From positions 124,001-188,000 of the forward strand of contig NZ_JAWLPU010000001.1 of NCBI RefSeq assembly GCF_036997485.1: 64,000 nucleotides of DNA, read 5' to 3'. A program made the position numbers and the translations under genes. This document shows positions 2,802 through 13,790 of this stretch, one piece after another; the stretch's first letter is position 1, and every line of letters begins with the position of its first letter. The notes below the pieces were generated by a model. That model was not told the origin of the DNA, searched no databases, and saw nothing but the letters and a program-made list of their open reading frames with translations. This stretch comes from Brachyspira pilosicoli. GTDB lineage: Bacteria; Spirochaetota; Brachyspiria; Brachyspirales; Brachyspiraceae.

Positions 2802-4220
2802 ATGAATAGTAAAATTAAAAATATACCAACCTTCTGGAAACTATTTCCACTTATTTTTATACTTATCACTGTTTTAATATTCACTGTAAAATATGGAGTT
2901 CCAATAGAGTTCTTGCTTACAATAGGAACATTAATAGCATGCATAACTGCATATTTTGCAGGATATAAATGGAAAGACATGGAAAATGCTTTCATAAAAA
3001 AAATTGTTGATACTTGGCTTGGTGTACTTATATTTATATTAATAGGTATAGTAGTAGGCTCTTGGGTATATTCTGGGACTGTGCCTATGCTAATATACTA
3101 TGGCATAAAACTTATTCACCCATCTTTTATACCCGTAATGGCATTTATTGTAACATCATTTCTTTCTATATTTACAGGCACTTCTTGGGGTTCTGCTTCT
3201 ACTGCTGGTGTTGCATTCATTGGTATTGCTCAGGCTACAAATACACCTCTTCCATTGGTTGCTGGTGCTGTTATAAGCGGGGCGTATCTTGGTGATAAAA
3301 ACTCTCCTATATCTGACACCACTGTTTTAGCGGCTCTCGGTGCTGGCACTACTTTACAAAATCATATAAAAACTATGCTCGTGAACACTATTCCATCTGC
3401 AATACTTGCCGCTGTAGTTTTTACAATATTAGGCTTTAATGCAGCTCCAATTAATTCTGATATTCTAAACCTAAAAGAAGCAAGTGATATATTAACTTCA
3501 TTAGAAAATATTTATAATTTCAATATATTATTACTTATTCCTCCTATATTTGTACTTATTGCAAGCGTAAAGGGGGTTAATCCTGTAATCACCATGTTTA
3601 TAGGAAGTTTGCTTGCGATAATATTAGGAGCTTTTATTCAAAACTTTGGTTTTATTAATGCTATGAAATCATTTGTAACAGGGTTTAATATATCAATGTC
3701 CCCTACGGTTAGCCCTGAAAGCATACCTCAAAACCTTCATAGCCTATTAAACCGAGGCGGTATGATAAGCACTATGCCTAGTGTATTGTTTTTAATATTA
3801 GCACTAACCTACGGAGCTATGCTTGAACTTTTGGGTACTTTTCAAACCTTAATAACATTGTTAATAAAAATAACCAAAGGAAGAAGAAGTTTAATATTTA
3901 TCACATGGCTTACAACATTCACTATAAACTCAGCATTAAGCAGTTTACAATTTACTTTCTTAACTTTGGGAAATGTGCTTCAAACAGTATACGATAAATA
4001 TAACATCAACAGAGGCGTACTATCAAGAACTATGGAAGAAGGAGGAACACTTACTGAAGTTCTGCTTCCATGGACAATCACAGGTGTTTATATGACCACT
4101 ATACTTGGAGTGCATACTTTGGAATATATGCCTTATTCGTTTTTTAATTTAATAAGTATATGTATCTCATTTATCTATATGCTCACGCTCCCGAAATTTG
4201 CTGTGGGTATAAAAAATTAA
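2802..4220 (+). CDS. nhaC: Na+/H+ antiporter, NhaC family
   Basis: A 472-residue integral membrane protein with about 11-12 hydrophobic segments. It belongs to the NhaC family, which exchanges Na+ for H+ (some members exchange organic acids) across the inner membrane. Diagnostic stretches are the small-residue-rich 'FTGTSWGSASTAGVAF' at about residues 125-140 and 'GAYLGDKNSPISDTTVLA' at about 160-180. A second conserved polar region, 'MEEGGTLTEVLLPWT', lies near residue 410. The start at 2802 follows a weak AAAGG, 11 bp away. It is monocistronic, with its own promoter. Exact substrate specificity cannot be read from the sequence. Confidence 0.88.
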   Translation: MNSKIKNIPTFWKLFPLIFILITVLIFTVKYGVPIEFLLTIGTLIACITAYFAGYKWKDMENAFIKKIVDTWLGVLIFILIGIVVGSWVYSGTVPMLIYYGIKLIHPSFIPVMAFIVTSFLSIFTGTSWGSASTAGVAFIGIAQATNTPLPLVAGAVISGAYLGDKNSPISDTTVLAALGAGTTLQNHIKTMLVNTIPSAILAAVVFTILGFNAAPINSDILNLKEASDILTSLENIYNFNILLLIPPIFVLIASVKGVNPVITMFIGSLLAIILGAFIQNFGFINAMKSFVTGFNISMSPTVSPESIPQNLHSLLNRGGMISTMPSVLFLILALTYGAMLELLGTFQTLITLLIKITKGRRSLIFITWLTTFTINSALSSLQFTFLTLGNVLQTVYDKYNINRGVLSRTMEEGGTLTEVLLPWTITGVYMTTILGVHTLEYMPYSFFNLISICISFIYMLTLPKFAVGIKN

Positions 4221-4285
4221 AATAATTGCTTTTTTTTATATATCAAATTATTATAAAAATTAATATTTAATATTAGGTTTTTATT

Positions 4286-5602
4286 ATGATATATGATTAC
4301 ATAAAGAATAATTATTTTTCTGACAGAGTTTTAAATTATGATATAAAAAAATATTTTAATGATGATGATAATTGTAAAAAATCATTCGATTATATAAAAG
4401 AATTATATAAAAAATATGATTTAAAAAAATTGAATGAAAGCCAATTAGAAGATGAGTTTATAAAGCCTATATTAACAAATGCATTTGAATATAAATATAT
4501 AAATCAAAAGGTAATAATAATACATGGCGAAGAAATGAAGCCTGATTATATTTTATTTTCTGATGATAATATAAAAAATAATTATATTAATAGTGAAAAT
4601 ATAGAAGATATATTATCTGTGTTTGAGGCTAAAAGCTGGGGATTAGATTTGGACAGTAAAAAAATAAAAGAATCTCCTCACAGACAGCTTGTAAGATATA
4701 ATTTATTTTTGGGAATAAGATACGGAATATTATCAAATGGTAAAGAATGGAGACTTTATGATTTGAAAGATAAAAAATCTGAAAAAGTATTCTTTGAAAT
4801 AAATTTAGAAAATATTATTAATAATGATGATTATGAGGCATTTGAATATTTTTATTATATATTTAGAAAAAAATTCTTTGTTTTGGAAGATAAAGAAACT
4901 CAAAGTAATGCACAAAAAATAGCAGCCGTAAACGAAGAAATTATTAACGAAATAGAAGAAGATTTAAAAAATGTTATTTACGGAAATAATTCTATAATAG
5001 AAAAAATAGGTCAGGTATTATATAAAGCGTACCCAAATGAAAGTTTAGATAATCTATTTAATCATTCTATTATGATGGCTTACAGATTATTATTTATAGC
5101 ATACTTTGAAACTAAATATGAAAGCCAATTATTTGCAGAACATGAGCATTATAAATCAAAAGCTCTATTTACATTATATAAAAGATTAGAAAGTCATTAT
5201 AGCGGAGAAAAAATAGATGACAAATTAAAAGCATATCAGGAATTATGTGAATTATTTGAAATATTGGATAAAGGAAGCATACCTTTTCATATACCTCTTT
5301 TAAATGGAGGGCTTTTTGATGTCAATAAAGCTCCTTTACTTGAATATAAAAAAAATAAAAACCTATTTACTAATGATGATGTATATAATATATTAAAAGA
5401 ACTTCTTCAGATAAGAGATGATAAAAATAAAATTAATATAAGAAACTTTTCAATAATGTCGGTTACTCATATAGGTAATATTTATGAGGGACTTCTTCAA
5501 TATACATTCAGACATGCTGCAGATAAAAAATATTACTTAGAATACAGAGAAAATAAAGAAAAAAATCTGGATATTTTGAGATATATGATTATGAAGAAAT
5601 AA
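4286..5602 (+). pseudogene. N-terminal (nuclease) part of a frameshifted type IIG restriction-modification enzyme
   Basis: 438 codons carry a PD-(D/E)xK nuclease signature: Pro86-Asp87 in 'KPDYILF' and Glu114-Ala-Lys116 in 'VFEAKSW', preceded by acidic residues at 55-57. This is the usual arrangement at the N-terminus of Eco57I-like type IIG enzymes, which cut and methylate DNA with one polypeptide. The downstream half is helical, as expected for the connector. The frame closes prematurely at 5602. The minus-one frame continues from an A7 run at 5559-5565 straight into the methyltransferase frame. As written, the enzyme is split. Phase variation, programmed frameshifting or a sequencing error are all possible. 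Confidence 0.8.
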
Positions 5603-8199
5603 AAAATAATAAAAACATAGAAATAGATATTGAAAGAGAAATAAGCCCTAACAGCATATATTTAGTTAATAGCTCCAACAGCAGAAAAATGAGTGCGAGT
5701 TATTATACTCCTACTTCATTATCAAATTTTATGGTTCAAGATGCAGTAAATATAATATTAGAAAATGAAAAATATAAAAAAAATATACTCTCATTAAAAG
5801 TGTTAGATAATGCATGCGGAAGCGGACATTTTTTGGTTGATTTTTTAGATGCACTTACAGAAAATATTTATTCAAGAATATTTAAAAGCGAAAACGATGA
5901 AGGCGATTTTTATTATTTGTATGATGATATAATGAGCGAAAAAGAAAAAATAAAAGACAATTTAAGCAATTATAATCTTGAAGATATGGAAATTGATGAA
6001 CTTCAAATATTAAAAAGAATACTATTAAAAAAAGTAATATATGGCGTTGATATAAATTACTTTTCTGTAGAACTTACAAGATTAAGTTTGTGGCTAAAAA
6101 CCTTTATATTTGGTACACCTTTAAGCTTTATAGAACATCATATTAAAGAAGGCAATTCATTAATAGGAAGCACTATAGAAGAGGGACAAAAAGCATTAAG
6201 CGAATATTATGAAGATGAACATAATCAGAGAGATTTATTTTCTCAGGATTTTAGAGATGTATTTGCAGAGTTAAAAAATGTATCAGAACAATTATCATCG
6301 CTTCCAGACAGCACAACCGAAGAAATAGAAAAATCAAAAAAAATATATATTAATGAAATACTTCCAAAACAGAGAAAACTCTCTTCAATATTAGATTTGG
6401 TTACATATAAAAAATTAAAGGAGAGTTTGAAGAAGAAAAAAGATGTTGAAATATTAAGTGCAGACCCTTATGCCAATTTAAGAGACATAAACAATTATAA
6501 TGAGAAGTCTAAAGATTTTGAAGAAGTAAAAAGAGTAAGCAGAAAATATAAATTTTTTAATTATGATATAGAGTTTCCAGAAAGCTATAATTACGGCTTT
6601 GATATAATAATAGGCAACCCTCCTTGGGATAAAGTAAAATTAGACGATAAAGACTTTTTCTCGCAATATAGAAGCAATTACAGAACAATGACAAATAATG
6701 AGAAAAAAGAGACGCAGGATAATTTACTAAAATATTATAAAGAGATAAAAGAAGAATATGAAGACACTAATAAAAGAATAAATACAATATTATCATATTA
6801 TGGTGCTTACTACCCACTAAATGAAGGTGCGGGAGATACAAATTTATTTAGATTATTCATTGAAAGAAATATTAATTTAATTTCTATAAACGGTTCTTTA
6901 ATATATGTTACTCCTTCAGCTTGGACTTATGAAGAAGGCTCAATAAATATAAGAAAATATATATTTGATAATTTATATTTCAGATATTTTTATCAGTTTG
7001 AAAATAGAGAAAAGGTTTTTAAAGATGTAGATTCAAGATATAAATTTGCTGTATGGTCTGTAAAAAAAGAAAAAATAATAAATAAAGATTATAAAGTGCC
7101 TTGTTTCTTTATGGAGCATAATGCTGAAAGGCTTTATAAAGAAAATAAAAATGAAATATTATACCCGCTTGATTTTTCAAGAAAGTATTTTGAAGACAGC
7201 TATATGATGCCAGAAATAGAGAATTATTCTAATATAAATATACTTGAAAAAATGTACTCTATAGGAAAAAAGATAGACAGCGAATATATAGATTTTTTTA
7301 GAGAACTTGATATGACTAATGATAAAGATCTATTTTTGGAAAAAAGAGATAATGATGAAATGCCTCTTTATGAAGGGAAAAAAATTAATCAATTTGATTC
7401 TAAATTTTCAGAAGTTAAGTCTTTTGTAGATAAAAACCAATTGGAAGAAAGGCTTTTTTCAAAAGAAGTATATAGAATGGTAGATAATATTTATGATGAT
7501 GTTAATAATAAATTTAAAGATAAAAATAAATCAGGCAAAGAAAATAGAATAATGGAATATTTAGGAATAGATAAAAAAGAAGAATTTAGCCAATATATAG
7601 TTTATGATTATACTTTTCCAAGGCTTGCATTCAGGGCTATAGCGAGTAATACTAATGAAAGAACATTAATAAGCTGTATTATACCGTCAAATTCTACTGC
7701 TGGAAATTCTCTATATATATCGTATTCAAAAAAATATTATTTAGAAGATAAAGATATAAAAATAAAAACTGTTCCTTTCAAAAGGATTTTATGGGTTAAT
7801 GCTTTATTCAATAGTATAGTGCTTGATTATGTTTTGAGGTTTTTAGTAGATATGAATGTTAATAAAACTTATCTTATGAAAGTGCCTTTGATACATGCAT
7901 CTGATAACGAATTAGAAACTGAGCCTTACTCCACAATTTGCAATAATGCTTTTGCTCTTTCTCTATACAACAACAAAGAGCTCTCCTCCTTTCATTCTCT
8001 GCCTGATGGTTTTGAAATACCTAATAACAGCAAAGATTATGATATGCTTCAAATTCAAAATGATATTTTAATTGCTAAACTTTACAACATATCTTTTGAT
8101 GAACTAAATAATATGCTCAAAACTTTTAAGGTGCTTAATGATAAAAAACCGCATTATGTGAAAACCTTGATTGATAAGACTAAAACTATTTTGAAATAA
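5566..8199 (+). CDS. Methyltransferase/specificity part of the same type IIG restriction-modification enzyme
   Basis: The first internal ATG is at 5689 (836 codons), but the frame is open from 5557 and continues the upstream protein without a gap. Motif I of N6-adenine methyltransferases is present (VLDNACGSGHF, about residues 38-48 from the 5689 ATG). Also present are 'GVDINYFSVELTRLSLW' (motifs II-III) and the catalytic motif IV NPPW at about residue 310, in 'IIGNPPWDK'. The long C-terminal third has no motifs I can name and probably holds the target recognition domain. No ribosome-binding site precedes 5689, which argues against independent translation. If only this part is made, it might still methylate DNA without cutting. 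Confidence 0.85.
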   Translation, partial: SGYFEIYDYEEIKNNKNIEIDIEREISPNSIYLVNSSNSRKMSASYYTPTSLSNFMVQDAVNIILENEKYKKNILSLKVLDNACGSGHFLVDFLDALTENIYSRIFKSENDEGDFYYLYDDIMSEKEKIKDNLSNYNLEDMEIDELQILKRILLKKVIYGVDINYFSVELTRLSLWLKTFIFGTPLSFIEHHIKEGNSLIGSTIEEGQKALSEYYEDEHNQRDLFSQDFRDVFAELKNVSEQLSSLPDSTTEEIEKSKKIYINEILPKQRKLSSILDLVTYKKLKESLKKKKDVEILSADPYANLRDINNYNEKSKDFEEVKRVSRKYKFFNYDIEFPESYNYGFDIIIGNPPWDKVKLDDKDFFSQYRSNYRTMTNNEKKETQDNLLKYYKEIKEEYEDTNKRINTILSYYGAYYPLNEGAGDTNLFRLFIERNINLISINGSLIYVTPSAWTYEEGSINIRKYIFDNLYFRYFYQFENREKVFKDVDSRYKFAVWSVKKEKIINKDYKVPCFFMEHNAERLYKENKNEILYPLDFSRKYFEDSYMMPEIENYSNINILEKMYSIGKKIDSEYIDFFRELDMTNDKDLFLEKRDNDEMPLYEGKKINQFDSKFSEVKSFVDKNQLEERLFSKEVYRMVDNIYDDVNNKFKDKNKSGKENRIMEYLGIDKKEEFSQYIVYDYTFPRLAFRAIASNTNERTLISCIIPSNSTAGNSLYISYSKKYYLEDKDIKIKTVPFKRILWVNALFNSIVLDYVLRFLVDMNVNKTYLMKVPLIHASDNELETEPYSTICNNAFALSLYNNKELSSFHSLPDGFEIPNNSKDYDMLQIQNDILIAKLYNISFDELNNMLKTFKVLNDKKPHYVKTLIDKTKTILK

Positions 8200-8299
8200 T
8201 TGAATGCCTTTTTATAGAATATTCATTATTGAAAAATACGCCCAATTAGTATATAATTATTTGTTATAATGCTAAAACATTTTTATTAAGGAGAATTAA

Positions 8300-11902: not shown

Positions 11903-11986
11903 GTACGCTTTAAGAAAGTGAAATATTTTATTTTTATATTTATGAAATATATATAAAGTAATACCATATGTTTTTGGCTATACTTG

Positions 11987-12302
11987 ATAGAAATGCAGTT
12001 GTTTTGGTTCTTTTATACCAATAAAAGAACTGGGGTGCTACCCTAAGGGCACGCTTCGCAGGGGGCAAAGCCCTGCAAATATTTCAATTTTAAAAATTCA
12101 TTTTTGACAAAATATAGTTGTTTAGGGATATAGTAAAAATTTTAAAATTTATAAGAAATTAGTTTTTTATTCAACTTTTTCCCGCCGCAAAAAGTGCAAA
12201 CAAAAAAATAATAATATTGATTACATATTTAGCCAAAATGTAGTTCTTTTGATTCTTTAGGTCACACTGAAAGGATACTCCTTCAGTCGCAAAAGAATTA
12301 GC
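11987..12302. repeat. Composite dispersed intergenic repeat, copy 2
   Basis: It occupies most of the gap 11903-12386. It begins with the right-type element (11988-12076, inverted TTCTTTTAT / ATAAAAGAA plus the GC-rich GGGCACGCTTCGCAGGGGG tail). A segment at 12077-12130 follows that is almost identical to 13700-13757, including a TTGACA at 12104-12109; the matching -10 is degraded (GATATA instead of TATAAT). Next comes the CAACTTTTTCCCGCC ... GCAAAAAGTG element (12168-12200) and a partial right element ending near 12302. No gene is seen in the gap. Confidence 0.75.
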
Positions 12303-13421: not shown

Positions 13422-13494
13422 AAATAGTTATACGGAAACAAATATGTACCTAAACAAATACATTTTGTCAATTAATATATTTTTAAATATATTA

Positions 13495-13760
13495 TCAACT
13501 TTTTTGCCGCTCAAAAAAGTTGCAAAAAACGCATATACTACAGCTTAATATTTTAAGAATATGTATTAAATATAACACTATTGTTTCGTATAAAAATGCA
13601 GTCCTTTTGCTTCTTTGGGTCATACCCACAGGTACTTCCTACGGTCACCAAAAGAAGTGTGGTACTACCCTACGGGCACGCTTCGCAGGGGGGCAAAGCC
13701 CTGCAAATATTTTAATTTAAAAAATTCATTTTTGACAAAATATAGTTGTTTAGGTATAAT
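13495..13760. repeat. Composite dispersed intergenic repeat, copy 3, with promoter
   Basis: It fills the gap between dgt and the cbrC-like gene. It has a left element at 13495-13532 (CAACTTTTTTG ... CAAAAAAGTTG inverted pair) and a right element at 13591-13700 with an extra GC-rich block at 13617-13660 and the GGGCACGCTTCGCAGGGGG tail. A conserved AT-rich extension at 13700-13760 ends in TTGACA-17-TATAAT. The short open frame across it has no ribosome site and looks spurious. Confidence 0.75.
13732..13760 (+). promoter_or_regulatory. Perfect consensus sigma-70 promoter inside a dispersed repeat
   Basis: TTGACA at 13732-13737, a 17-bp spacer, and TATAAT at 13755-13760 lie 30 bp before the start of the cbrC-like gene. 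The same sequence in repeat copy 2 has a mutated -10. Confidence 0.75.
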
Positions 13761-13790
13761 TAAAAATAATAAATGATAAAGGAGTATAAA

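Follow-up and report, generated by a model that had tools for sequence, protein, structure and literature searches.

A type IIG restriction-modification gene of Brachyspira split at a run of seven A: probably a recent, ordinary inactivating deletion of one base

Results

A type IIG gene in two reading frames

The window (the whole stretch of 64,000 nucleotides of Brachyspira pilosicoli DNA that was analyzed) carries on its forward strand an open reading frame of 438 aa (4286-5602) that terminates with TAA at 5600-5602, and an overlapping minus-one frame of 880 aa that is open from 5557 and stops at 8199 (5557-8199). The earliest ATG, GTG or TTG codon of the second frame is the ATG at 5689, from which 836 aa would be encoded. 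Judged by sequence, the two frames are the halves of one type IIG restriction-modification gene: the first half appears to comprise the nuclease domain and a connector, and the second the adenine methyltransferase and the target-recognition region. The PADLOC profile PDLC03613 (REase_MTase_IIG, 1250 positions) matches the first half over positions 9-426 (E 2.6e-66) and the second half over positions 429-1246 (E 1e-191), i.e., the two matches lie back to back and a single family profile covers nuclease and methyltransferase over the full length. The Pfam matches of the second half, Eco57I (E 1.2e-19) and MmeI_Mtase (E 2.8e-7), are both over the cut-offs; those of the first half, HSDR_N_2 (E 0.001) and MmeI_N (E 0.0022), are weak and fall below the curated cut-off. 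A search by sequence among solved structures gave no relative of the enzyme.

The catalytic motifs are all intact across the two halves. The first half contains the motif PDYILF ... FEAK (4541-4633), probably that of a PD-(D/E)xK nuclease fold, which is kept in the homologues from B. hampsonii, a more distant Brachyspira (genome G001) and Campylobacter jejuni. In the second half, alignment locates methyltransferase motif I, DNACGSGHF (5806-5832, D84-F92 of the 880-aa frame), and the catalytic motif IV, NPPW (6616-6627).

The frame changes at a run of seven A (A7, 5559-5565) that encodes part of a lysine-rich linker, a region poorly conserved in the alignment of homologues. The stop codon of the first half is reached only owing to this frame change, and apart from it the 3.9 kb gene has no further stop. 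The coincidence of the frame change with the homopolymer is real. Elsewhere in the gene there are nine A/T runs of length 7 and three of length 8; the A8 runs are in frame. The zero-frame codons GAA AAA AAT place the heptamer A_AAA_AAT (5560-5566) in phase with the first frame. The initial annotation had described a type IIG gene whose frame is broken by one base at A7, with the nuclease frame ending at 5602, the minus-one frame open from 5557 and a heptamer of slippery form in the zero frame; the coordinates, the phase of the heptamer and the split itself all hold.

Orthologues and the wider family

An orthologue was located in B. hampsonii 30446 by DNA search, and among 26 genomes of the genus the gene is present in two others, G006 (B. 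hampsonii, 86% identity) and G001 (69%), as one open frame in each. The B. hampsonii orthologue has 1319 aa in a single frame of 3960 nt and reads A8 at the junction site. The G001 orthologue has 1299 aa, likewise in a single frame, and its junction site reads AAA TCA AAA AAC, without the long run. In the nucleotide alignment of the window gene with that of B. hampsonii, the sole uncompensated frame-changing indel is the one base at A7/A8; the remaining gaps of one base are noise of the alignment, each offset a few bases away, and longer ones preserve the frame.

Across 393 genomes of the phylum, most members of the family consist of one frame of about 1270-1300 aa. Many of them occur in two genera with small genomes (about 1.2 Mb), which we take to be Borrelia and its relatives, and a plasmid collection yields 101 matching records, of which 94 belong to Borreliella or Borrelia. 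The second half is 43% identical to a homologue of C. jejuni ZS006, whose gene adjoins ackA and pta and is presumably, from this gene order, the Cj0690c locus; identity to BBE02 of Borrelia is 36%. The closest characterized relatives are RM.CjeNIII (Cj0690c) and BBE02. Both activities reside in one polypeptide in the B. hampsonii and G001 orthologues, whereas the split at 5559-5602 separates them in the window copy, and for this reason the latter is filed as a broken allele of the CjeNIII/BBE02 group.

The insertion site

The stretch 4220-8212, which lies between an antiporter gene and the side of the copZ-like gene and ruvA, is absent from the nearest complete relative (G011), where the flanks are joined directly as an empty site. 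The nearest genomes compared (G011, G012, G013 and G016) are 95-96% identical across the ruvA region. At the same site, G012 has a different gene of 1029 aa (L033, 4019-7108) with a methyltransferase motif of the NPPY type, and at that position G016 carries other sequence, about 0.8 kb long. The site thus looks like an insertion site for defense genes that varies among close relatives: next to ruvA, it may be empty or hold either the type IIG gene or a different methyltransferase gene.

Synonymous divergence (dS) from B. hampsonii is 0.43-0.48 for the type IIG gene, about half of that for the neighboring antiporter (1.0), and nucleotide identity, about 80% in the antiporter, climbs to about 90% in the type IIG gene. 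Because of this halved dS and the rise in identity, transfer of the gene between the lineages after the split of the species, beside the same neighbor, is suggested. Elsewhere in the window, an intergenic repeat of about 60-250 bases occurs at 505-730, 11915-12186 and 13441-13767, with copies of about 78-95% identity at many places in the genome.

Age of the break

Both halves show purifying selection, with dN/dS relative to B. hampsonii of 0.095 for the part 5' of the junction and 0.158 for the part 3' of it, and the window lineage has no excess of changes. With G001 as the outgroup, there are 7 + 36 = 43 lineage-specific amino-acid changes in the window gene and 6 + 35 = 41 in that of B. hampsonii. 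Since dN/dS is low and the two lineages have changed to a similar extent (43 versus 41), the gene is unlikely to have been decaying for long, and the loss of one A is apparently recent. Pseudogene decay was rejected as a description of the gene, none being visible in dN/dS or in the lineage-specific changes.

Phase variation

The initial annotation had offered phase variation as one reading of the split. In its full form, A7/A8 would flip the enzyme between on and off with high frequency, giving a mixed population and perhaps a phasevarion. There is a precedent among type IIG genes: in C. jejuni NCTC 11168, the initial description of cj0031 was of a frameshifted gene, with its modification undetected (PMC3526280), and phase variation through its polyG tract was later demonstrated (PMC4889913). 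The window gene also differs from its in-frame orthologue by one base at the run, and its halves are otherwise intact. Several results nevertheless make high-frequency switching unlikely here. Campylobacter candidates have been called with a cut-off of 10 or more for A/T tracts (PMC6321876); by this PhasomeIt cut-off, neither A7 in the window nor A8 in B. hampsonii reaches the length of a hypermutable tract, and G001 has no run at the site. Runs of this kind are ordinary in the genome, at about 1.6 A/T runs of 7 or more per kb of ORF (about 1400 in the 794 ORFs scanned), and three A8 runs within the gene itself stay in frame. Compared with synonymous-codon shuffles of the genome ORFs, such runs are not enriched (1407 observed with the gene excluded versus 1601 expected), nor are they in the halves of the gene (5 and 7 observed versus 4.8 and 7.8 expected). 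Selection for instability through A-run enrichment was rejected on the basis of these shuffles. Missing mismatch repair was rejected as a cause of instability as well, mutS and mutL both being encoded with matches over the profile cut-offs. The literature searched yielded nothing on a phase-variable restriction gene in Brachyspira.

The idea of phase variation thus survives in the weak sense that any A7 or A8 can slip, but a dedicated switch is not supported, given a short run that is not enriched and the presence of mutS and mutL. We regard as a similarly slim chance a slow but selected on/off switch of the type IIG methyltransferase, under which cultures would mix methylated and unmethylated cells; if true, Brachyspira would thereby have its first described methylation switch, as far as the literature searched shows. 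It should be noted that the run is A7 in the one genome of this species analyzed and A8 in another species, B. hampsonii, and that the evidence for a fixed versus a variable state comes from the assembly of that one genome. Outside the window, a G8 run lies in an ORF for a membrane transporter-like protein (L050, G000:C1:242354). Of all G runs in the 1.08 Mb scanned it is the longest, and commonly applied cut-offs make it a stronger candidate than A7 for switching by repeat length.

Assembly or sequencing error

If the split were an error of assembly or sequencing, as the initial annotation had also allowed, the actual gene would be intact, which would suit the purifying selection and the absence of excess changes. 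We compared 1.08 Mb of the genome of the window gene by gene with 1.21 Mb of G011. Among the ORFs of G011, 433 were found at full length in the genome of the window and 1 showed an apparent frameshift, which looks like an antisense reading frame and not a gene. In the reverse direction, 399 genes were found at full length in G011 and 24 were apparently broken, many of them next to A/T runs; homopolymer frameshifts are therefore frequent in some Brachyspira assemblies. These 24 may be sequencing errors of the G011 assembly. The 399 genes of the window's genome that have full-length, single-frame matches in G011 contain 653 A/T runs of 7 or more. Because no true frameshift is seen in about 433 comparable genes, the assembly that holds the window appears clean in this respect and systematic error is unlikely, although the control limits error more than it limits a true mutation in a dispensable gene, since core genes are under selection. 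We thus consider error an improbable source of the split, and the break in the DNA is very probably real.

Leakage, frameshifting and separate translation

Slippage of RNA polymerase or of the ribosome on the A run could yield some full-length enzyme. In M.HaeIII, a frameshift located in a run of 8A is bypassed with functional methylation (PMC3812077), and E. coli RNA polymerase inserts a base at the A7 of mboIIM2 at 0.39% (PMC6260861). By analogy, low-level bypass at A7 in Brachyspira is plausible. A7 is at the low end, however, as an effect was detectable in earlier reporter assays only with runs of more than seven A or T (PMC6260861), and no instance of frame restoration was detected in the transcriptomes of Buchnera and E. 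coli (PMC5574713); it is very doubtful that leakage supplies enough enzyme for partial function.

Programmed minus-one ribosomal frameshifting, another proposal of the initial annotation, is not supported. In its favor, A_AAA_AAT is in phase and a fold of 5530-5640 has a z-score of -2.5, but that fold holds the run in its own loop and its counterpart in B. hampsonii has a z-score of -0.64. Folds of the downstream sequence only (z -0.99 and -0.28) are no better than shuffles, so that no stimulator stem was found downstream of the heptamer, and no inverted repeat was found in 5480-5720. There are 703 in-phase occurrences of the heptamer in 794 ORFs, and the strongly shift-prone form in E. coli is A_AAA_AAG (PMC5009743). 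Because the orthologues are single-frame, a two-frame design is not conserved, and we regard such frameshifting as extremely improbable.

Synthesis of two separate proteins, a stand-alone nuclease and a methyltransferase begun at the ATG at 5689, can be practically dismissed: this ATG does sit just ahead of the conserved SASYYTP, where the methyltransferase part begins, but in the intact orthologues from Brachyspira the same codon encodes a methionine within the protein, the stop at 5602 lies 86 bases upstream of it, and no Shine-Dalgarno-like sequence precedes it (a weak test that also misses at 4286).

Discussion

The reading that we consider probable is that the split is a real and recent one-base slippage deletion, an ordinary inactivating mutation that has left an OFF allele in this isolate; it stands as a fourth reading beside the three of the initial annotation. 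A type IIG gene that moves horizontally and belongs with CjeNIII and BBE02 would have lost one base by slippage, probably recently, in an A run encoding lysines of the linker that joins the nuclease and connector part to the methyltransferase. Translation of the first frame would then stop at 5602 and give a 438-aa nuclease fragment without the methyltransferase or target-recognition part, and the second half would be left untranslated or made only in traces. We infer that the mutation is in the DNA and not in the assembly, that the protein is inactive and that the change is recent. Restriction and modification would vanish together, which would be harmless to the cell. Reversion may occur at the low rate usual for runs of this kind, and low-level leakage or slow reversion is possible under this reading of an inactivating deletion. 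If the run varied within a culture, Brachyspira would gain a methylation switch. A homopolymer frameshift in an AT-rich genome need not be phase variation, such runs being found in most genes, and caution is warranted.

The best-characterized relative, Cj0690c (RM.CjeNIII), has been cloned; it cleaves at GKAAYG (19/17), and the second A of this sequence is its methylation target (PMC3526280). The type IIG enzymes RM.CjeNIII and RM.CjeFIII have the same domain order as the Brachyspira gene product in one chain of about 1250 aa, and their gene is one frame in Campylobacter, whereas the window copy is split. BBE02, on lp25 of Borrelia burgdorferi, is a type II restriction-modification protein and a barrier to transformation (PMC12811465); it belongs to the same family and likewise comes from a spirochaete, but it is plasmid-borne and a single frame of 1277 aa, unlike the split window copy. 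Cj0031/Cj0032 resembles the window gene as a type IIG system recorded as two parts owing to a homopolymer-associated frameshift. There, however, the tract is polyG, switching was measured and ON and OFF methylomes were obtained (PMC4889913), whereas the window gene has a short A run. M.HaeIII (PMC3812077) and mboIIM2 (PMC6260861) are also methyltransferase genes with one-base homopolymer changes that are partly bypassed by slippage; their bypass was seen in laboratory constructs in E. coli.
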